A stretch of DNA of 64,000 nucleotides. Origin: Sphingobacteriales bacterium. GTDB taxonomy: Bacteria; Bacteroidota; Bacteroidia; Sphingobacteriales; Sphingobacteriaceae. The DNA lies in NCBI GenBank assembly GCA_028288165.1, contig JAQBOG010000014.1:124001-188000 (forward strand), given 5' to 3'. A program made the translations under genes and the position numbers. The notes below the pieces were generated by a model. That model made no database searches. It worked only from the letters and a program-made list of their open reading frames with translations, and was not told where the DNA came from. Below are positions 9,688 to 42,627 of this stretch, in pieces. Positions within the stretch are counted from its first letter, which is position 1. Every line of letters starts with the position of its first letter.

Positions 9688-11609
9688 TTTATGGCGTTTC
9701 GTATACTGCTTTAGTTTTCTTCATATTTTTTGTTGGACTCGTGTTAGGGCTCTCCTTTTATTTTGCACGAAAAACCAAGTCGGCCTCATCATATTACGCT
9801 GCAGGCGGACAAATACATTGGGCAATAAATGGGATTGCCTTTGCGGGAGATTATCTTTCCGCTGCCTCATTTCTAGGGATTTGCGGCATGATCGCCACCT
9901 TCGGCTTTGATGGGTTTCTGTACTCCATAGGTTTCCTTGCGGGATGGATTGTTGCACTATTTTTAATTGCCGAACCTCTTAAACGATTAGGTAAATACAC
10001 GTTTACAGATGCCTTAAATTCCAAGTTTAAATCAAGAGCAATTACGCTTACAGCAGCAATTAGTACATTAATAGTATCGATATTTTACCTAATACCACAA
10101 ATGGTGGGTGCTGGAGATTTAGTTACTCCTCTTTTAGGGCTGCCGCATTGGGTGGGCGTAGTTTTAGTGGGGATCATCGTCATATTTATTGTAGCCAGTG
10201 CAGGAATGACTTCTACAACATATGTGCAGTTTATAAAAGGCGGGCTGTTATTAGTATTATCAACTATATTAACAATTTATATATTCAAAAACGGATTTAC
10301 TTTAAACCCTGTTAATGATGGTAGCGCCTATCATAAGTTTATAACACTCACACCTGAAGTTGCAGATAGCGTTGTTATTAGTGTGGCTGATTACAAGGTT
10401 ATAAGTCAGCAGAATGTTAAAACTAAGCACTTTGTTAAACTAGAGAAAGACAACGTTCAACGATGGTTCGACTTAGTTAAAGACAACGATCAGTATCTTT
10501 TGAAGGAGGTTCTTTCAATATCCGAAGGGGAACAAGGCATTATGCTTTATAATGGCGAGCCAAGAGAAAAAGCTAAGTTTTTTCAAGTGGGACACATGAG
10601 TAAGATAATAGTTGATGGAAAGGAAGTTGAAAAAACGGGTCCTGTTAGTCCTTTTCGATTTTTATCGATCATCAACAAAAGTGAAATCGTCAGGTTTTCG
10701 GAAGTTAAGTTAACAGACGAAGGGAAAAAAGTTACTTTATTTTATCAGAACATTACCAAAGGGAAAGATTTTATGCTTCCGGGATTGAAATATAAAATAG
10801 GTAAAGGTGCTAGTGTTTGGAGCCGCCTGGACTTTATATCCTTGATGCTTGCACTTTTCTTAGGGACTGCTGCTTTGCCTCACATTTTAATAAGATATTA
10901 TACGGTAAAATCTCAACGAGATGCACGTAAGTCAACCATTTTAGCAATAGCTGCAATCGGAATATTCTATGTTCTTACCTTATTTATGGGATTAGGAGCT
11001 GCTATTAATGGAGTTATGGATGTAGAATCAAGTAATATGGCGGCACCTCTTTTGGCAAAAGCTTTTGGTGTGGTTCTTTTTTCGGTGATTTCTGCAGTAG
11101 CATTTGCAACCATATTAGGAACCGTTGCTGGGTTGATTATTGCCTCATCTGGTGCCATTGCACATGACTTGCTCGACAATTATTTTAACTGGAATTTAAG
11201 TGATAATAAGAAAGTTAAAGTGGGGAAAATTTCTGCGTTTGCAGTGGGAATTTTTGCAATTGCTTTAGGGATCGCTTTTAAAGGCATGAATGTTTCTTTC
11301 CTGGTTGGTTGGGCATTTTCGATAGCTGCATCAGCTAATCTTCCTGCCATCTTGTTTTTGCTTTTCTGGAAAAAGACCACTGCAAAAGGCATAGCTTCTT
11401 CGATTGTAGTAGGGATTATGTCTTCTTTAACCATTATTTTAACGTCTCCTACTATGTGGGACAGATACGGTTTAGATCCGGCAAACGCTATTCACAAATT
11501 AGATAATCCGGCTATTATTTCGTTTCCATTAGCAGTGCTTACGATTTATATAGTTTCCCTATTAACTCAAGATAAATTGGTGGAGGTACATGTAGAAGCG
11601 AATGTTTAA
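9684..11609 (+). CDS. actP: Sodium:solute symporter, acetate permease ActP-like, with large insertion
   Basis: Inner-membrane transporter for acetate or another short monocarboxylate. Family signatures include YYAAGGQIHWAINGIAFAGD near the N-terminus, ASAGMTSTTYVQFIKG, GTAALPHILIRYYTV and SNMAAPLLAKAFG followed by SAVAFATILGTVAGLIIA, all close to E. coli ActP. At 641 aa it is about 90 residues longer than ActP. A hydrophilic stretch from about residue 202 to 380, rich in Lys, Asp and Val, separates the segment ending TILTIYI from the one starting RLDFISLMLAL, where I recall ActP having a much shorter loop. The gene overlaps DUF485 by 4 nt and is followed by acs 67 nt on. Substrate is inferred from context. 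Confidence 0.88.
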   Translation: MIYGVSYTALVFFIFFVGLVLGLSFYFARKTKSASSYYAAGGQIHWAINGIAFAGDYLSAASFLGICGMIATFGFDGFLYSIGFLAGWIVALFLIAEPLKRLGKYTFTDALNSKFKSRAITLTAAISTLIVSIFYLIPQMVGAGDLVTPLLGLPHWVGVVLVGIIVIFIVASAGMTSTTYVQFIKGGLLLVLSTILTIYIFKNGFTLNPVNDGSAYHKFITLTPEVADSVVISVADYKVISQQNVKTKHFVKLEKDNVQRWFDLVKDNDQYLLKEVLSISEGEQGIMLYNGEPREKAKFFQVGHMSKIIVDGKEVEKTGPVSPFRFLSIINKSEIVRFSEVKLTDEGKKVTLFYQNITKGKDFMLPGLKYKIGKGASVWSRLDFISLMLALFLGTAALPHILIRYYTVKSQRDARKSTILAIAAIGIFYVLTLFMGLGAAINGVMDVESSNMAAPLLAKAFGVVLFSVISAVAFATILGTVAGLIIASSGAIAHDLLDNYFNWNLSDNKKVKVGKISAFAVGIFAIALGIAFKGMNVSFLVGWAFSIAASANLPAILFLLFWKKTTAKGIASSIVVGIMSSLTIILTSPTMWDRYGLDPANAIHKLDNPAIISFPLAVLTIYIVSLLTQDKLVEVHVEANV

Positions 11610-11676
11610 AAGTTTTTAAATATTTTAAAAACAATATTATACTTTAGCCAACTAATTAATTAGAATCATTTTTACA

Positions 11677-17184: not shown

Positions 17185-17264
17185 GCGTTTGGGCGGGCTT
17201 TCCGTTACAATCTTTTTGCCCCAGAGAAGGGCAAAAAGGATTTTCACTAAAATCCCTAACGCAA
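17185..17264 (+). repeat. Dispersed intergenic repeat, copy A
   Basis: Begins GCGTTTGGGCGGGCTT and ends AAAATCCCTAACGC. Its centre is a perfect 10-bp hairpin, CTTTTTGCCC (17212-17221) with GGGCAAAAAG (17229-17238). An inverted, near-identical copy (B) lies at 18982-19062 on the far side of the kinase gene. It may also act as a bidirectional terminator between the converging regulator and kinase genes. Confidence 0.8.
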
Positions 17265-17329
17265 ACCTGGCAAATCTTATAACTACTTTCGGAGTGTTAT
17301 TGGTATATTTTGAACTGAACGGACATTAC

Positions 17330-18817: not shown

Positions 18818-18981
18818 AGGTACGATTGGTAAGTTATTATAAAAATAAATTTTATAAAGCGAAGTATAATACAACTTCCTAAAGAATTAGTATAGATTCT
18901 ATAATTGTAATAGTACAAAATTTAAGTTAATACCTTGTTGAAAGTTCAATCAGACGATTCATTTCGGGTTAAGTCAGATTT

Positions 18982-19062
18982 TGCGTTAGGGATTGACGTG
19001 AAAATCCTTTTTGCACCCTTCGCAAAAAGATTGTAACATAAAGCCCGCCCGAACGCCCAAAG
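18982..19062 (-). repeat. Dispersed intergenic repeat, copy B (inverted relative to A)
   Basis: Reads TGCGTTAGGGATTGACGTG, then GAAAATCC, a hairpin CTTTTTGC (19007-19014) with GCAAAAAG (19022-19029), GATTGTAACAT, AAAGCCCGCCC and GAACGCCC. Apart from the hairpin loop and a few positions it is the reverse complement of copy A, about 1.7 kb away. Confidence 0.8.
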
Positions 19063-35708: not shown

Positions 35709-36648
35709 ATGAAGAGTTTAATAATCGGCTTGCTCACAGCTTTTTGCCTTCCCGTTTATGCGCAAACAAAGGCAGAAGAAGTGAAATCCTTTACATTACG
35801 TAATGGAATGAAGTTTTTAGTTCTGGAAGATAATACCATTCCCAATGCTAATATGTACTTTTTTTACAAGGTTGGTTCACGCAATGAGTATACGGGTATT
35901 ACCGGTTTATCACATTTTTTTGAACACATGATGTTTAACGGCGCTAAAAAGTACGGACCGAAAATGTTTGATAGAAAAATGGAATATAGCGGAGGATCAA
36001 ACAATGCCTATACTTCGCAAAACATAACCGTCTACACGGATTGGTTTCCGTCATCAGCATTAGAGACCATGTTTGATTTGGAAGCTGATCGAATCGCCAC
36101 ACTAAAAAGGGATAACCATGATTATGTTGCGATTACCGTTGTGAATACAGTAGAGGAGGAAGATTCACCTCCTTATTAAATGCGGGTAAACAGTGGGCTG
36201 CCCTATGGCGCCAGAAGTGCTTTTGTACCTTGAAAAATTCAGGCACTTTTTACATATCAACTTTTACCGCGTTAAAAAATACTGAACAAGCGATTGCTAA
36301 AGCAGTTGAAGTGTACCATAAATTTCATGCAAATGGCCTTGATGAAGAGGCATTAACTTCCGCTAAAAATTATGTAAAGGGGATGTTCCCACCACGATAT
36401 GAAACTCCGAGCCAGCTATCCGGCTTATTAACGCAGATGTTTTGGTATGACTTTGATGAATCTTATATCAATAATTTTCAAAGTAATGTGGACGCTTAAC
36501 CACCGGCAAAGTCAAGGAAATTATTGCAAAATATTTTCCTAAAGATAATCTTCAATTTGTGCTGATTGGTAAATCAGCCGATATCAAAAAGATTGCTGAA
36601 AAGTAGGGGGTTGTGGTGGAGAAGAATATTAAAGATAATGGGTTTTGA
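35709..36648 (+). pseudogene. Decayed M16 zinc metalloprotease
   Basis: The N-terminal part (35709-36179) is a good M16 start: signal peptide MKSLIIGLLTAFCLPVYAQ, then GITGLSHFFEHMMFNGAKKY with the HxxEH zinc motif, then SGGSNNAYTSQNITVYTDWF. After LEADRIATL the sequence degenerates and meets a TAA at 36177. The continuation MRVNSGLPYGARSAFVP is short and then stops. C-terminal sequence resumes in another frame near 36230 (NSGTFYISTFTALKNTEQ, NGLDEEALTSAKNYVKG), is broken by a one-base shift at the TAA at 36497, and continues LTTGKVKEIIAKYFPKDN to a TAG at 36604 where KYG would be expected. An internal block is missing. It cannot make an intact peptidase. Confidence 0.85.
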
Positions 36649-36946: not shown

Positions 36947-38671
36947 ATGATATCTTTTAAAGAACTAAAGAAAAATTTAAAGAAGGAAAGTTCTGCACTC
37001 CCTGCCTTGAAAGTTGCCTTATTGGGTGATGTTACTACGCAATTTTTGGCTGTTTCTGTCATGGGAATGGGATTTGAAAGAAATTATAACATAACCTTGT
37101 TTGAAGCTGAATTTAATCAGATAGAACGCCAGGTATTAGATCCGACTTCAGATTTACATGATTTCGGAGCCACTTATACTATTGTTTTTCAATCAACCCA
37201 CAAGTTATTGGAAAAATATAGCATGATGCATCCAGATGCCCAAGTGCTTTTGGCCAATGACCGGCTAGATTTTATCCGTACTATTTGTGGCTCAGTTAAA
37301 GGTCGCATCATCTATTATAACTATCCCGAAATTGAGGATACTGTTTTCGGAAGTTATGCGAATAAGGTAGAGGCCTCATTCACCTTCCAACTTCGGAAAC
37401 TGAATTTTGAACTGATGGAGCTCGCTCAGGAAATTCCTAATCTCTTCATCTGTGACATATCTGGACTACAGAATAAATTTGGTCGTGATGTGATGTTCAA
37501 TAGCAGTATATATATCAGTACTGAAATGGTGTTAAGCCTGGATATACTACCTTATGTAGCTTCCCGAACACTGGATGTGATCTGTGCAGTTGAGGGGAAA
37601 TTCAAGAAGTGCCTCATTTTAGACCTTGATAACACCGTCTGGGGCGGCGTGGTTGGAGATGATGGATGGGAAAATGTGCAGGTTGGCCACGGTTTGGGGA
37701 TAGGTACAGCATTTACTGAGTTTCAGCAATGGGTTAGAAAACTTAAGAACCGGGGAATTATAATTGCCGTTTGTAGCAAAAATGATGAAGACAAAGCACG
37801 GTCTCCATTTGAAAAAAATCCCGAAATGGTGCTTAAAATGGATGACATTGCCGTTTTCATTGCCAACTGGGAAACTAAAGTGGATAATATACGGCACATT
37901 CAAAGCATACTTAATATTGGGTTCGACTCCATAGTCTTTTTGGATGATAATCCCTTCGAGCGAAATATTGTAAGGGAGAATGTACGGGATATTACAGTGC
38001 CCGAACTTCCAGAAGATCCTGCTGAATATCTTGAATATCTTTATTCATTAAATCTTTTTGAGACGGCATCACACTCAACAACTGATGCAGACCGCACCTT
38101 GCAATATCAAGTAGAAAGTAAGAGAGCATCCATAATGAAAAGCTTCACCGATGAAGCAGACTTCTTAAAGTCGCTAAATATGGTTTCGGAAGTAAAGAAA
38201 TTCGATTCATTTAATACGTCTCGTGTTGCGCAGCTTTCCCAGCGGAGTAATCAGTTTAACCTTCGCACTATTCGCTACACAGAGGCAGAGCTTGGATCGA
38301 TAGTGGAAGATGATTATTATGCCACATTTGCTTTTACTCTCGAAGACAAATTTGGTGATAATGGCTTAATCTGTGTCATTATTCTGAAAACATTAGATAG
38401 TGATACCCTTTTCATCGACACCTGGTTTATGAGTTGCCGCGTATTAAAGCGGGGGATGGAAAACTTTACATTGGAGACAATAGTAAATTATGCAAAGGAA
38501 AATGGTTTTAAGCGAATAATAGGCGAATATTTACCTACGGCTAAAAACAAAATGACAGAGAACCACTACACTAAACTTGGTTTTATCTTGATAGATGGGG
38601 CAGAATCAGAGCAATTTGAATTGAGTGTAGATGATTGTCAGATTGGAGAACATTTTATTAATAAACATTAA
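36947..38671 (+). CDS. FkbH-like HAD-family glyceryl-ACP-type loading protein
   Basis: 574 aa. The N-terminal ~200 residues look SGNH/flavodoxin-like (ALLGDVTTQFLAVSV, then FNSSIYIST). The HAD-IIIC core has D226/D228 in LILDLDNTVWGGVVGDDG, the motif II serine in IIIAVCSKNDEDKA, and the acidic motif IVFLDDNPFERNIVREN. A GNAT-like C-terminus includes DTWFMSCRVLKRG, where C497 is the candidate acyl-thioester residue. FkbH proteins take 1,3-bisphosphoglycerate, remove phosphate and load a glyceryl group on an acyl carrier protein. The next gene is such a carrier (10 nt away), which supports that role. An almost complete conserved set suggests activity; product identity is inferred. Confidence 0.88.
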   Translation: MISFKELKKNLKKESSALPALKVALLGDVTTQFLAVSVMGMGFERNYNITLFEAEFNQIERQVLDPTSDLHDFGATYTIVFQSTHKLLEKYSMMHPDAQVLLANDRLDFIRTICGSVKGRIIYYNYPEIEDTVFGSYANKVEASFTFQLRKLNFELMELAQEIPNLFICDISGLQNKFGRDVMFNSSIYISTEMVLSLDILPYVASRTLDVICAVEGKFKKCLILDLDNTVWGGVVGDDGWENVQVGHGLGIGTAFTEFQQWVRKLKNRGIIIAVCSKNDEDKARSPFEKNPEMVLKMDDIAVFIANWETKVDNIRHIQSILNIGFDSIVFLDDNPFERNIVRENVRDITVPELPEDPAEYLEYLYSLNLFETASHSTTDADRTLQYQVESKRASIMKSFTDEADFLKSLNMVSEVKKFDSFNTSRVAQLSQRSNQFNLRTIRYTEAELGSIVEDDYYATFAFTLEDKFGDNGLICVIILKTLDSDTLFIDTWFMSCRVLKRGMENFTLETIVNYAKENGFKRIIGEYLPTAKNKMTENHYTKLGFILIDGAESEQFELSVDDCQIGEHFINKH

Positions 38672-38681
38672 CAAGTTAAAT

Positions 38682-38924
38682 ATGGAATTCAACGAAATTT
38701 TAGAGAGAGTGCAAGACGTGTTTCGTGACGTGTTGGAAAACGAAGACATTGTATTAACTTCCCAAACTACAGCTAATGATGTTGAGGATTGGGATTCTTT
38801 AAATCATATTCAACTGGTGGTCGCTATTGAAAAGGACTTTAAAATCAGATTTACATCTCACGAAATTCAAAGCTGGAAAAATGTAGGAAAGATGGTTGAT
38901 TGTATTGTAAAGAAAAAAGCATGA
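38682..38924 (+). CDS. Acyl carrier protein
   Basis: 80 aa from the ATG at 38682 (MEFNEILERVQDVFRDVLEN). Frame-open sequence upstream overlaps the FkbH end and is unlikely to be translated. The phosphopantetheine attachment serine is S39 in VEDWDSLNHIQLVVAIEK, and the helix-IV region is SHEIQSWKNVGKMVDCI. It is a dedicated carrier, distinct from a housekeeping AcpP, which normally lies beside fabF. It starts 10 nt after the FkbH stop and overlaps the next gene by 4 nt, so it is probably produced in step with both. Confidence 0.93.
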   Translation: MEFNEILERVQDVFRDVLENEDIVLTSQTTANDVEDWDSLNHIQLVVAIEKDFKIRFTSHEIQSWKNVGKMVDCIVKKKA

Positions 38925-39319
38925 ATTTAAAAGTTCATGACCGATTCGAAGAAACGTTCACTGTTTCCGATCATATTTATGAAGGCTTTATATCCATGTT
39001 TAGAGATAAAAATCCACTTCATACCGATGAAAGGTTCGCAATAGAACAAGGATTCAACGGAAGAGTAATGCATGGTAATATTCTAAACGGGTTTCTTTCT
39101 TATTTTATTGGCGAATGCCTCCCAGTGAAAAATGTGATCATTCATACCCAAAGCATTCAATTTAAAAATCCTATATACTTGAATAATAAGGTTTTTTTTG
39201 AAGGTGTTGTAACCAACATATTTGAATCTGTAAACGCTATTGAATTTAAATTCAGCTTTAAAAATGAACAATTAAAGGAAGTTGCGAAAGGTAAGATTCA
39301 AATAGGCTTATTGATATGA
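38921..39319 (+). CDS. MaoC-like hotdog dehydratase
   Basis: 132 aa from the ATG overlapping the carrier stop (ATGA); an earlier in-frame ATG at 38900 lies inside the carrier gene. The R-hydratase signature is present: MFRDKNPLHTDERFA, with D29 and H34 as the candidate catalytic pair, then GFNGRVMHGNILNGFLSYF. Family members hydrate or dehydrate 2-enoyl or 3-hydroxyacyl thioesters. On a glyceryl-ACP, loss of water would give a pyruvyl/enol thioester, which the next gene could reduce. That step order is inference. Ends in an ATGA overlap with the SDR gene. Confidence 0.85.
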   Translation: MNLKVHDRFEETFTVSDHIYEGFISMFRDKNPLHTDERFAIEQGFNGRVMHGNILNGFLSYFIGECLPVKNVIIHTQSIQFKNPIYLNNKVFFEGVVTNIFESVNAIEFKFSFKNEQLKEVAKGKIQIGLLI

Positions 39320-40038
39320 TCATTTTAATAACAGGAGGAGCATCCGGGTTGGGCGAAACGTTAACTCGTATGATTGCAAAAAGACTGAATGATAGAGTCT
39401 TTTTCACATATGCACATTCTGACAAACAGGCCAGACAAATTGAAACGGAATGTTCAAATGCAACCGCCTTAAAATGTGATTTTAGGAATCGAGAAGAGGT
39501 TGATGCACTCGTAGCAAACGTCGGACAATTGAACATTGATGTCTTGATTAATAATGCCTATACAGGCGATTTTACGAAATCATATTTTCACAAAACCGCT
39601 GCCGATGATTTCATTGAGGCATTTAATGTGAATATTGTTCCATCAATACTTATTACACAAGCTGCCATTAACGTATTTAGAAAGAAAAAGTTTGGTAAAA
39701 TAATTACCATCTCAACGGCCGCTCTGGTAAATGCTCCACCTGTGGGATCCTCAGTTTATGTAGCAAATAAGGCTTATATCGAGCAGCTTTCTAAGGTTTG
39801 GGCTAGCGAAAATGCGAAGTTTAATGTCACATCGAATATAGTGTCACCAGCGTTTATGTTAACTGGTTTTACAAATTCGATGGATGAAAGAGTCGTTGAG
39901 CAAATAATAAGTAATCATCCTCTCAAAAAGCTACTTACAACAGAAGAAGTTGCTGAAAGTGTGTGCTTTCTAATAAACTCAAGTCAGCAAATTAATGGAG
40001 TCAACCTTATACTCAATGCTGCAATGAATATTAAATGA
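39316..40038 (+). CDS. Short-chain dehydrogenase/reductase (FabG-like)
   Basis: 240 aa Rossmann protein. Cofactor site TGGASGLG at residues 6-13, NNAYTG at ~79-84 in place of the usual NNAG, and the catalytic Tyr-Lys pair Y148/K152 in SSVYVANKAYIEQLSKVW, with a serine near S133 (ISTAALVNAP). The pattern suits an NAD(P)H-dependent ketoacyl-thioester reductase. In this operon it could reduce a pyruvyl-ACP to lactyl-ACP or oxidise glyceryl-ACP. It is coupled to the dehydratase upstream (4-nt overlap) and to the small frame downstream. Confidence 0.9.
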   Translation: MIILITGGASGLGETLTRMIAKRLNDRVFFTYAHSDKQARQIETECSNATALKCDFRNREEVDALVANVGQLNIDVLINNAYTGDFTKSYFHKTAADDFIEAFNVNIVPSILITQAAINVFRKKKFGKIITISTAALVNAPPVGSSVYVANKAYIEQLSKVWASENAKFNVTSNIVSPAFMLTGFTNSMDERVVEQIISNHPLKKLLTTEEVAESVCFLINSSQQINGVNLILNAAMNIK

Positions 40039-40223
40039 AATTTGCCGCTTTCTTTCGATCTAAGAAACTATTCACCTATCCGAGTTTCCTTAATGTAAAT
40101 CTGGTGAGGAGTGACTGTAACCACAGGCACCTTCTTTTCGTAATGTATATCCAATTCAACAGAACAATAATTAATTCTCCTGTCATAATAAAGCAGACTG
40201 TAACTGGTAAAAATAAATGGTAG
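40035..40223 (+). CDS. Possible 62-aa ORF bridging SDR and MBOAT genes
   Basis: An open frame that overlaps the SDR stop (ATGA) and the MBOAT start (7 nt), so spacing fits a coupled gene. The product starts MKFAAFFRSKKLFTYPSFLN and ends in KNKW, with one weak hydrophobic stretch (HLLFVMYIQF). It has no recognised family. It may be a small accessory peptide, as dlt operons often have (DltX), or simply a 179-nt leader between two genes. Confidence 0.3.
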   Translation: MKFAAFFRSKKLFTYPSFLNVNLVRSDCNHRHLLFVMYIQFNRTIINSPVIIKQTVTGKNKW

Positions 40224-41680
40224 TAAACTCAGTCAATTTTTTTATATTCTTTTCAATTGTTTTTGTCAGTTACTATTTCTTGTTCAATGGGAGAAGCAAG
40301 GCTCAAAATATTTTACTGCTACTGGCCAGCTATTTTTTTTACGGCTTTGCCGAATGGAAAATGCTTCCGTTGTTATTAGTAGCTACTTGTGTTTTTTTCG
40401 TCCTTGGCATTGCTATTTGGAAATATAACAACAATTCAAGTTCCCGAAAAGCTTCAGCTCTTACTAATCTCGGTGTAATACTCGGAATTGGCTTGCTGCT
40501 ATACTTTAAATATCTCAATTTCTTTATTCAGTCGTTCAGCGATTTTTTTAATGCGTTAGGCTTGCAAACTCGCTGGGGAGTGCTTGACATAGTTATGCCT
40601 CTTGGAATCAGTTTCTTCACGTTCAAGCTCATTGCTTATGTGATTGAAATATACCGCGGACGTATTCAACCGTCTCGCAACTTTGTAGACTTTGCTGTCT
40701 ATATTGCATTCTTCCCAACTATTCTTTCTGGGCCGATTGATCGTCCTAATACGTTGCTTACGCAGCTATCACGGGGGCGTGAGTTTGACTATGATCTGGC
40801 ATTGATCGGTTTAAAGCGGATCTTCTGGGGAATGTTTATGAAAATGTGTGTGGCAGACCGATTAGCGATTTATGGTGATGCGGTCTTTAACAATGCAGAG
40901 CATCACAACGGAACTTCGCTTACGTTTGCTACACTACTCTACCCAATTCAACTATATGCTGATTTTGCTGGCTACTCCGAGATGGCAATTGGTGTGGGAG
41001 CACTTTTAGGGTTTAAGATTACGGAAAACTTCAAGCGCCCATTTTTTTCGCAAAACATTGCAGAATACTGGCGTAAATGGCATATCTCTCTAACAGGCTG
41101 GCTAACAGATTACGTATTTATGCCCTTAAACATCTATTTTCGAAACATAGAAAAATGGGGATCCATCTTTGCAATTATTATCACATTTGTACTGATTGGT
41201 TTTTGGCATGGAGCTGATTGGAAATTTGCCTTATTCGGACTCTACCACGGCTTACTTTACATACCATTAATGCTATCCGGGGCATTCTTCAAAAAGAATA
41301 AAATGAAGAAGACTGAAAGCGGATTACCAACTTTTAATGCCATCTCTAAAATGTTCGGAACTTTCCTGTTAGTTGCATTTGGACTTATACTTTTTAGAAC
41401 AACAGGTCTCGACCAAAGTATACTAGTTACTCAAAAGATCTTTACCAGCTGGGGCAGCTTATTTGTTGATTCCAAAACGTTAATAAATGGTTTGCTTTGT
41501 ATGACTATCCTTTTATATAAGGACTTCAGAGACGAATTTTTTCCGATAATGCACGAGCAAGGGAGGCCGCAGGGCTTTGTTAAGCGCTATGGGTATGAAC
41601 TAACCGTGTCTGTTTATATCGTTTTGATCCTGTTTCTTGGGGTATTCGATGGGAGTCAGTTTATCTATTTTAAATTTTAG
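40217..41680 (+). CDS. MBOAT family membrane O-acyltransferase (AlgI/DltB/PatA-like)
   Basis: 487-aa polytopic enzyme. Family pattern: NSVNFFIFFSIVFVSYYFLF at the start, LASYFFYGFAEW, PLGISFFTFKLIAYVIEIYR, FFPTILSGPIDRPNTL, AEYWRKWHISLTGWLTDYVF and the catalytic His region IGFWHGADWKFALFGLYHG, with H331 as the essential residue. MBOATs of this group pass an acyl group across the inner membrane to a polysaccharide or teichoic acid acceptor, usually with an SGNH partner, which is the next gene (5 nt away). With an upstream dedicated carrier, the acyl donor is probably the ACP thioester, as in DltB/DltC. Confidence 0.92.
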   Translation: MVVNSVNFFIFFSIVFVSYYFLFNGRSKAQNILLLLASYFFYGFAEWKMLPLLLVATCVFFVLGIAIWKYNNNSSSRKASALTNLGVILGIGLLLYFKYLNFFIQSFSDFFNALGLQTRWGVLDIVMPLGISFFTFKLIAYVIEIYRGRIQPSRNFVDFAVYIAFFPTILSGPIDRPNTLLTQLSRGREFDYDLALIGLKRIFWGMFMKMCVADRLAIYGDAVFNNAEHHNGTSLTFATLLYPIQLYADFAGYSEMAIGVGALLGFKITENFKRPFFSQNIAEYWRKWHISLTGWLTDYVFMPLNIYFRNIEKWGSIFAIIITFVLIGFWHGADWKFALFGLYHGLLYIPLMLSGAFFKKNKMKKTESGLPTFNAISKMFGTFLLVAFGLILFRTTGLDQSILVTQKIFTSWGSLFVDSKTLINGLLCMTILLYKDFRDEFFPIMHEQGRPQGFVKRYGYELTVSVYIVLILFLGVFDGSQFIYFKF

Positions 41681-41685
41681 TTGTA

Positions 41686-42627
41686 ATGAGAAAATTCCTA
41701 ATAAAGCTTTTTATCGTTACGGTAATTACATTAATCGCCGACAGGGTGTTGGCTCTTATTGTAGGCCATTTTTACAAAACAACTACTACTGCTGATGAAT
41801 ATAAACTGAACCAAGTAACCTATAAACTGAAAGCACCTGTAATTTTTATGGGGAGTTCTCGATGTCACCACCATTATGTTCCTTCAATTATTAGCGATAC
41901 TTTGAAAACAGATGTCTACAATGCTGGACTGTGGGGCATGCGGAACATTTACTTCCAATATTCCTTACTTAGCAATATTGTGGAAAACTATACACCTAAA
42001 ACCATTATTCTTGAAATCCATCCTATCGACTATTTACATACTCCTTTCTCAGACATTGAGACAATGGGCGTGCTTACCCCGTTTATAGGCTATAGCTCAG
42101 GCTGTGACGAGGTATTGAAAAAGGCAAAGCTTTATAATAAAACCTCACTATCTCATTTATACCGTTATAATAGTCTTTTTCCAAATATCATCGCTGGTAA
42201 TATTGCTCAACGTTCCAATCCTGCTGATAAAGGATTGAAGCCCTTGATTGGCCAATTAGATATTAAGTCGGGCGATATCAAGCCCGAAAAGTTTCCGTAT
42301 CCTGTTGATGAAGAAAAATTGAGGTATCTTCAACTTTTCGTCAATGTATGTAAGCAAAAGAAAATTCAACTTATTTTTATCTTCTCCCCAATGTACGCTG
42401 TAGAAAAAAGAAGTAGTTTGTTTATAATTCCGAATAAGATCGCCTTAAAAAATAATATACCTTTTATAAATCATTATTATTTGGAAGGGATAACCGGACA
42501 TGCTGAATATTTCTTTGATTATGGTCACCTCAATTCTGAGGGAGCAAAGAAATATTCTTCAATTGTAGCATCGGAATTGAAACAATACTTTAAGAAGAAG
42601 TCAACCTCTGTCGCGACTTTCCATTAA
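41686..42627 (+). CDS. SGNH-like acyl-transfer partner of the MBOAT (DltD/AlgX-type)
   Basis: 313 aa: one N-terminal membrane anchor (FLIKLFIVTVITLIADRVLA), then a periplasmic SGNH fold. Block I is VIFMGSSRCHHHYVP with the candidate nucleophile at S57/S58, followed by DVYNAGLWGMRNIYFQYSLL. The C-terminal block FDYGHLNSEGAKKYS carries the D278/H281 pair. Proteins of this kind complete acyl transfer to the polymer outside the membrane. It is the last gene of the operon. The C-terminus ends in a basic Lys-rich tail. Confidence 0.82.
   Translation: MRKFLIKLFIVTVITLIADRVLALIVGHFYKTTTTADEYKLNQVTYKLKAPVIFMGSSRCHHHYVPSIISDTLKTDVYNAGLWGMRNIYFQYSLLSNIVENYTPKTIILEIHPIDYLHTPFSDIETMGVLTPFIGYSSGCDEVLKKAKLYNKTSLSHLYRYNSLFPNIIAGNIAQRSNPADKGLKPLIGQLDIKSGDIKPEKFPYPVDEEKLRYLQLFVNVCKQKKIQLIFIFSPMYAVEKRSSLFIIPNKIALKNNIPFINHYYLEGITGHAEYFFDYGHLNSEGAKKYSSIVASELKQYFKKKSTSVATFH

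Follow-up and report, generated by a model that had tools for sequence, protein, structure and literature searches.

The window analysed here, a stretch of 64,000 nucleotides from a contig of a Sphingobacteriales bacterium, contains at 36947–42627 an operon in which an FkbH-type loader and an acyl carrier protein (ACP) stand together with two tailoring enzymes, a DltB-like acyltransferase of the MBOAT family and a protein of SGNH fold. An earlier, sequence-only reading had proposed that these genes form a Dlt-like, ACP-based surface acylation system fed by FkbH. We compared the genes with their families, with related loci in other genomes and with described systems.

Gene layout and protein families

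The operon region comprises the following features:

36947..38671 (+): FkbH-type ACP loader, 574 aa, with FkbH_N and HAD-IIIC/FkbH domains; D226, D228, C497
38682..38924 (+): ACP, 80 aa, PF00550; phosphopantetheine Ser39 in WDSL
38921..39319 (+): MaoC/R-hydratase-like dehydratase, 132 aa, tailoring gene 1, PF01575; D29/H34
39316..40038 (+): SDR reductase, 240 aa, tailoring gene 2, PF13561; Y148/K152
40035..40223 (+): open reading frame (ORF) of 62 aa filling the SDR–MBOAT gap, without family match, probably not a gene
40217..41680 (+): DltB-like MBOAT, 487 aa; H331, HC-like stretch 298–310 without PLGG, FIYFKF at 482–487
41686..42627 (+): SGNH-fold protein, 313 aa, by predicted fold; S58, D278, H281, N-terminal helix 2–32

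The six genes are real and intact: all six ORFs are open in the window, on one strand and in the order first described. The tight packing claimed for them is confirmed as well. With the ACP start placed at 38682, a choice based on the lengths of relatives (an alternative upstream ATG lies at 38631), the successive spacings are 10 nt, a 4-nt overlap, another 4-nt overlap, 178 nt and 5 nt, so that only the SDR–MBOAT gap with its 62-aa ORF exceeds 10 nt. The same gap measures only ~30 nt in a Pedobacter locus (L010). The small ORF has no family match and shows no convincing similarity to any fetched locus. We considered it as a DltX-like protein, but its FTYPSF, which fits FXYXXF, lies at residues 13–18 near the N-terminus, the wrong end, and is probably due to chance; no similarity supports it as the leftover of a replaced VOC gene either. 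Three matches to the Bacteroidota-type promoter (TTTG-N17-23-TAnnTTTG) occur in the window against 5.5 expected, none of them near the operon.

The loader belongs to the FkbH family, with 295.8 bits for FkbH_N (Pfam), 285.3 bits for TIGR01686 against a cut-off of 146.65 (NCBIfam), the HAD aspartates and the cysteine; D226, D228 and C497 are kept in 71/71 relatives. A close relative of solved structure, deposited as "uncharacterized protein BF1531" (PDB 3slr), matches residues 2–377 and spans most of the first 380 residues. The ACP scores 27.9 bits with PF00550 (PP-binding; cut-off 20.8) and its Ser39 is present in 85/85 relatives. Likewise, the MaoC protein scores 38.3 bits in Pfam (cut-off 27), has PDB relatives 3ir3 and 1iq6, and shares D29 and H34 with 20/20 relatives, while Y148 and K152 of the SDR protein, which matches PF13561 and stays below the cut-offs of FabG-like NCBIfam models, are kept in 26/26. 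The MBOAT reaches 76.1 bits in Pfam (cut-off 27); H331 and the C-terminal FXYXXF (FIYFKF in the window, with Tyr484) are found in 95/95 relatives.

The SGNH protein has no match in Pfam or NCBIfam, and its identity rests on the fold of the structure model. Esterases and thioesterases are the structures nearest to that model; PatB and OatA rank slightly lower, level with many esterases, and hence the fold alone cannot tell a transferase from an esterase. The N-terminal helix 2–32 of the model is a probable membrane anchor. All residues quoted by the sequence-only reading (DxD 226/228, C497, MaoC D29/H34, SDR Y148/K152, MBOAT H331, SGNH D278/H281) proved to be in place, and its choice between S57 and S58 of the SGNH protein could be narrowed: position 58 is Ser in 60/60 relatives and position 57 in 41/60, so that by conservation S58 is most likely the catalytic serine.

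A recurring core with exchangeable tailoring genes

The window MBOAT was searched against genome contigs, and the best 80 loci of 189 relatives make up the MBOAT-seeded set. FkbH is present in 54/80 of these loci and an ACP in 64/80; FkbH, ACP and MBOAT occur together in 52/80, and in 39 of these 52 an SGNH gene is recognised with our own SGNH profile. The exact order FkbH-ACP-MaoC-SDR-MBOAT-SGNH recurs in just 4/80 loci, L010 (Pedobacter cryotolerans) and L083, L086 and L087 (Flavobacterium), and L119, fetched through FkbH, has FkbH-ACP-MaoC-SDR-MBOAT in identical order. The expected co-occurrence therefore stands for the FkbH-ACP-MBOAT linkage and falls short for the six-gene set. What recurs, with good support, is FkbH-ACP-MBOAT around an exchangeable middle, in most cases together with SGNH. 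At the same time, the invariant or nearly invariant catalytic residues in the relatives and the recurrence of the exact order lead us to reject a chance arrangement.

The middle of the unit takes several forms in the relatives: MaoC and SDR, an epimerase-like VOC protein, MaoC with a split transketolase (in one locus together with an aldo/keto reductase), a methyltransferase, or none of the families searched for. The VOC protein matches PF13669, and its best NCBIfam match, methylmalonyl-CoA epimerase, scores 48 bits where the cut-off is 115. A tree of FkbH comprises 72 rows, of which 56 carry a tailoring class and 16 without MBOAT are left uncounted; along it the tailoring class changes at least 16 times, where the minimum possible is 4 and shuffled labels average 28.8. 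The classes are thus clustered yet have been exchanged repeatedly. Indeed, the window's nearest relatives (L066, L026 and L009; FkbH 78–80%, MBOAT ~75%) have VOC in place of MaoC and SDR, and the window's own MaoC and SDR are closest to those of Pedobacter L010 (68% and 63%) among nine loci compared. Two Prevotellaceae metagenome-assembled genomes (MAGs), L043 and L051, share 94% DNA identity across 2.5 kb ending with FkbH, after which one has VOC and the other MaoC and SDR, and similarity returns at the ACP (71%). Judged from this alignment, the pair presents a clean swap of the tailoring module.

Downstream (3') of MBOAT-SGNH, L026 also encodes at 10366–11637 (+) a carbohydrate-esterase-like protein of SASA type (PF03629, in a Pfam run on this protein). 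Proteins resembling it occur in L009, L066, L017 and L020, with no counterpart in the window; it might be a third partner or else the corresponding de-acylase.

Of 201 genomes sampled from the family of the window, including the window's own, 69 have an MBOAT relative and 12 an FkbH. Seven of these 12 FkbH proteins adjoin an MBOAT of the window's type, termed noGG below, with an ACP in the cluster (the window, G505, G509, G516, G553, G558 and, divergently arranged, G562), and G609 and G525 encode such an MBOAT at another place in the genome. The FkbH proteins of G042 and G551 are distant (34% and 30%), and neither genome gave an MBOAT match. Across a phylum sample any FkbH is found in 30/395 genomes, and an MBOAT lies near FkbH in 4 of 20 fetched regions (L119, L120, L122, L124); in L280 (G525), FkbH-ACP-MaoC-SDR adjoins an AT3 acyltransferase. 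FkbH thus has other partners too. G027 (L135) carries FkbH-ACP-MaoC-SDR beside NeuB-type and UDP-GlcNAc-2-epimerase-type genes with no MBOAT match; the same locus also holds a 347-aa protein without family match. The donor cassette may therefore serve other transferases in L135 and L280.

The MBOAT signature and its link to the carrier

In the Dlt system, DltC docks on helix HC of DltB via Met302, Val305, Ile306 and Met309 (PMC11035591, in the part of the article at hand). A phmmer alignment places the window MBOAT stretch DYVFMPLNIYFRN on this helix; it has some of the DltB contact residues in common and is distinct from the PLGG types. We assigned MBOATs to noGG or PLGG with a regular expression on the HC stretch, so GG at 305–306 in the PLGG set is true by definition, which is not the case for the spacing and for the residues of the noGG set. 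PLGG-type MBOATs (for example DYLYIPLGGSR) have 38 residues between two WH motifs in 92/95 cases, whereas this spacing is 40 in 86/87 noGG MBOATs. Among the latter, position 306 is I, V, L or F in 79/87 and position 308 is F or L in 75/87.

Over all fetched loci 159 distinct MBOATs were judged, and an ACP lies upstream in 69/82 noGG MBOATs, compared with 0/73 PLGG MBOATs that have an ACP of their own. The zero includes two PLGG MBOATs (L032, L120) that were flagged by a filter artefact, as a noGG MBOAT intervenes between them and the ACP. Four of the 159 are set apart, the unparsed L067 and L072 (both with ACP) and L255 (without) as well as L261, which has PLCG and no ACP; from the 80 MBOAT-seeded and 20 FkbH-seeded regions, five noGG and one PLGG MBOAT with <1.5 kb upstream were dropped. 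Some of the noGG MBOATs entered the set by way of FkbH, which biases the count in favour of the noGG–ACP association; in the MBOAT-seeded loci alone, an ACP is found upstream of 61/67 noGG and 0/18 PLGG MBOATs, with the five noGG MBOATs of short upstream sequence dropped. Forty hand-picked regions along a Pfam MBOAT listing of the 395 phylum genomes, a listing that reaches down to ~90 bits and favours the GG type, gave an ACP with 0/40 GG and 0/2 noGG MBOATs. In 20 regions from the window's family the figures are 0/16 for GG and 1/5 for regex-noGG, these five including the unparsed L255 and the PLCG-type L261.

The ACP accompanies the transferase. Of the 66 noGG MBOATs linked to an ACP, 48 have it ≤100 nt upstream, and 11 loci keep it beside MBOAT-SGNH with FkbH on the opposite strand. 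Other loaders occur as well. A Saprospiraceae MAG (L088) combines a noGG MBOAT and an ACP (95.5 bits with our own ACP profile, NCBIfam matches below cut-off) with an amino-acid adenylation enzyme (TIGR01733, 321.3 bits against 317.4) and a GNAT protein, and two Treponema MAGs (L057 and L068) have a noGG MBOAT, an ACP-like ORF and a KAS III-like enzyme, together with an SDR protein in L057. These loaders suggest acetoacetyl/hydroxybutyryl or aminoacyl donors on a common chassis, the Treponema carriers being weakly supported.

FXYXXF stands at the very C-terminus of 84/84 distinct noGG MBOATs and of 88/95 PLGG MBOATs, 7/95 failing the strict pattern. According to the portion of PMC12148441 consulted, the Tyr in the C-terminal FXYXXF of PatA is acetylated by PatA itself and then used by PatB. 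By its sequence, the window MBOAT thus looks like a Dlt/PatA hybrid, ACP-linked like DltB and with an acyl-shuttle Tyr fused at its own C-terminus.

These data bear on the idea that the operon joins two neighbours with separate jobs, the cassette feeding a soluble transferase or a metabolite and the MBOAT-SGNH pair using acetyl-CoA as PatA and AlgI do. Donor cassettes apart from an MBOAT in L135 and L280, the separate locations (L245, L281) of cassette and MBOAT-SGNH in G609, and the fused motif typical of CoA-using MBOATs would fit such a division. The retention of the ACP by noGG MBOATs in loci with an opposite-strand FkbH or with another loader (L088), the absence of an own ACP from every PLGG MBOAT counted, and the different residues and spacing (40 against 38) of the ACP-linked HC stretch make us regard it as improbable.

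Some loci (L054, L080, L119, L120, L051, L032) are tandem arrays, with a noGG ACP-linked MBOAT before or after at least one PLGG-type MBOAT, which gives the impression that a single locus attaches different acyl groups.

Origin of the locus

The genome of the window is 68.6% complete in 42 contigs and holds one FkbH and one MBOAT. It also encodes two ACPS-family proteins, which could activate the operon ACP, and two further PP-binding proteins besides that ACP. The low completeness and the presence of FkbH in 0/19 congeners raise the question whether a foreign contig or a misjoin placed the operon here, as may happen in a partial metagenome assembly. Congeners G013, G018 and G007 share the order gluCyc-PGI-M16-M16-NlpE-prfB, with both M16-type genes open and the operon absent, and in the window the operon lies between the NlpE gene and the following feature:

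35709..36499 (+): remnant of two M16-type peptidase genes, open in congeners, at the left edge of the operon slot

The first part of one gene and the last part of the other are recognisable, the first piece by a Pfam M16 match and the second by its place and its similarity to the second congener gene. G003 and G015 carry other content in the slot. As both flanks are syntenic with the three congeners, we interpret the locus as an acquisition into a native site and not as a misassembly; the G+C of the operon region also resembles its surroundings, and the gene order recurs elsewhere. We thus consider an assembly artefact very improbable. The window further contains two Flavo-1 RNAs (RF01705) above gathering score, at 17187–17276 (−) and 18978–19054 (+), 1.7 kb apart.

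Discussion

With this in hand, we compared the operon with the systems that it most resembles. It shares with Dlt (DltA-DltX-DltB-DltC-DltD of Gram-positive bacteria) a dedicated carrier (38682–38924, Ser39) for a DltB-like MBOAT and an SGNH protein that would finish the transfer outside. DltB is also the best PDB match of the window MBOAT by sequence and structure, where it leads over human MBOATs in listings that showed no AlgI- or PatA-type MBOAT, so that this ranking does not decide between DltB and AlgI. In contrast to Dlt, the sole loader-type protein in the operon is FkbH and not a DltA-type D-alanine:carrier ligase, two tailoring enzymes are present for the carrier-bound group, there is no separate DltX as its C-terminal FXYXXF is fused to the MBOAT (482–487), and the MBOAT remains below the cut-off of the DltB model TIGR04091 (194.6 against 375 bits). 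The likeness to PatA/PatB and AlgI/AlgJ/AlgX lies in an MBOAT with catalytic His and C-terminal FXYXXF and in an SGNH-fold partner with Ser-Asp-His and a probable anchor read from helix 2–32. Those pairs use acetyl-CoA without a carrier (PMC12148441, as far as the consulted portion goes), whereas the operon here encodes an ACP, and its MBOAT is without the PLGG loop present in those MBOATs for which no ACP was seen. As such, the system is neither Dlt nor plainly PatAB/AlgI, and by analogy would work as a Dlt-type pathway with a PatA-type fused shuttle.

On the donor side, FkbH and a standalone ACP make glyceryl-ACP in tetronate and methoxymalonyl-ACP pathways (PMC7489565, likewise from a partial text). 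The operon shares this pair of FkbH and free-standing ACP and adds MaoC, SDR and a membrane acyltransferase, unlike the known cassettes with their FabH-like enzyme, two dehydrogenases and O-methyltransferase, or polyketide synthase; between ACP and MBOAT there are only MaoC and SDR, and not the two dehydrogenases and O-methyltransferase of methoxymalonyl-ACP formation.

The loading module of bryostatin synthesis reportedly combines FkbH, dehydratase and reductase into a proposed D-lactyl starter. The three-step logic, lactyl from a glycolytic intermediate, is the same; that module is, however, embedded in a polyketide synthase, while the window proteins are free-standing and their product would be exported. 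In the open-access literature, no system among the matches listed joins FkbH, or a non-Dlt ACP, to an MBOAT-SGNH pair, and the matches listed for FkbH with MBOAT concern, in the portions displayed, cyanobacterial peptides only. Dlt-like carrier logic, a PatA-type shuttle and FkbH loading are each known; we did not find their combination described there.

Altogether, we conclude, with a probability of roughly 0.65, that the operon encodes an MBOAT-SGNH system for surface acylation that depends on a carrier protein and draws on glycolysis through 1,3-bisphosphoglycerate. For the acyl group, the docking of the ACP and the acceptor, we infer the following course. By family chemistry, FkbH would take the three-carbon unit of 1,3-bisphosphoglycerate via Cys497 and load glyceryl onto the phosphopantetheine of the ACP. 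MaoC would remove the 3-hydroxyl of glyceryl-ACP to give enol/pyruvyl-ACP, which SDR would reduce to lactyl-ACP. The acyl-ACP would then dock on the cytosolic side of the MBOAT at its HC-like stretch, with L40/I43 of the ACP and M302/I306/F308 of the MBOAT as predicted contacts; H331 would catalyse acyl transfer to Tyr484 of the FIYFKF motif at the outer face, as modelled on PatA and DltB/DltX. Finally, S58/D278/H281 of the SGNH protein would pass the acyl group on to an envelope glycan at a hydroxyl.

In this scheme the acyl product is probably lactyl. The machine could also run as proposed on glyceryl, pyruvyl or another hydroxyacyl group, with MaoC and SDR acting otherwise, and we take this alternative seriously although we favour it less. 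The MaoC protein resembles R-specific enoyl-CoA hydratases, we know of no tested MaoC homologue that acts on glyceryl-ACP, and the widely differing tailoring genes of the relatives make several products probable in the wider family. What keeps lactyl ahead is that FkbH is the sole loader in the operon, that no ketosynthase is there for chain extension, and that loss of the 3-hydroxyl followed by reduction at C2 would be the simplest chemistry for MaoC and SDR on a glyceryl thioester.

The acceptor is most likely an envelope polysaccharide. Two of the six-gene relatives sit among glycan-type genes: L010 among Polysacc_synt-, Wzy_C- and GT2-type genes (flippase/O-antigen-ligase/glycosyltransferase-type) and L083 among a UDP-GlcNAc 2-epimerase and GT-type genes; in addition, an FkbH-ACP-MBOAT locus (L283) lies two genes from a GT2 gene. 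A lipid or protein acceptor, such as lipid A or a lipoprotein, would suit an operon without directly adjacent glycosyltransferases. We consider it rather unlikely in view of these neighbourhoods and because polymers of the envelope are the acceptors of known MBOAT-SGNH pairs (PMC12148441, within its consulted portion).

Several observations weigh against the proposed system. No glycan genes are among the direct neighbours of the window's operon, and the cassette of G027 without nearby MBOAT suggests that it serves something else too. In 13/52 core loci no gene matches our own SGNH profile, though the neighbour in L051 matches ALGX. In the noGG set, position 305 (Val in DltB) is Asn in 59/87 and position 302 (Met in DltB) is Thr in 19/87, so that the docking surface is only partly DltB-like. 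The Treponema ACP-like ORFs reach only 18.6–30 bits with our own ACP profile, and that of L068 has no Pfam or NCBIfam match. At the thresholds used, 13/82 noGG MBOATs have no upstream ACP, most of which can be accounted for: L046 and L062 have FkbH-ACP just downstream; L282 and L270 are a single G562 gene counted twice, with a divergent FkbH-ACP-VOC alongside; L057 has an ACP-like ORF below the threshold of the count; the genomes of L017, L020 and L071 have a complete FkbH cassette at another MBOAT; and those of L245 (G609) and L246 (G525) have one elsewhere. L049, L187 and L208 stay unexplained, the genome of L049 showing no FkbH. Moreover, much of the noGG set may belong to a single clade, in which case its association with ACP would not represent independent events.

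The Dlt-like, FkbH-fed reading thus keeps its basis in the gene linkage, the invariant residues, DltB as best structural match and the co-occurrence of the families; it is modified in that the unit is FkbH-ACP-MBOAT with a swappable middle and the MBOAT a Dlt/PatA hybrid. Since ACP and MBOAT stay constant while tailoring genes and sometimes the loader are swapped, the chassis would deliver different small acyl groups. We give even odds to a broader proposal, that in Bacteroidota and Spirochaetota ACP, noGG MBOAT and SGNH serve generally to export small acyl groups bound to a carrier, and that loader and tailoring cassettes recombine into this export port, so that lineages would switch their surface-glycan acylation like a serotype. 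With the same reserve, the cassettes plugged in would be FkbH with epimerase-like VOC, MaoC and SDR, transketolase or methyltransferase, KAS III, and amino-acid adenylation.

A mechanistic paper of 2025 (PMC12148441) attributes, in the portion consulted, the absence of a carrier protein from MBOAT/SGNH pathways except Dlt to their use of acyl-CoA. If our proposal is true, a group of Gram-negative systems breaks the rule that only Dlt uses a carrier, and the presence or absence of PLGG would help to predict whether CoA or a carrier supplies a bacterial MBOAT with its acyl group. The operon also names likely enzymes for small hydroxy-acyl donors of surface glycans, and the two Prevotellaceae MAGs suggest that decoration can change by the swap of one small gene module. 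Bacteroidales MAGs from rumen and gut contribute many of the 80 MBOAT-seeded loci, so the surface chemistry in these habitats may vary more than has been assumed.

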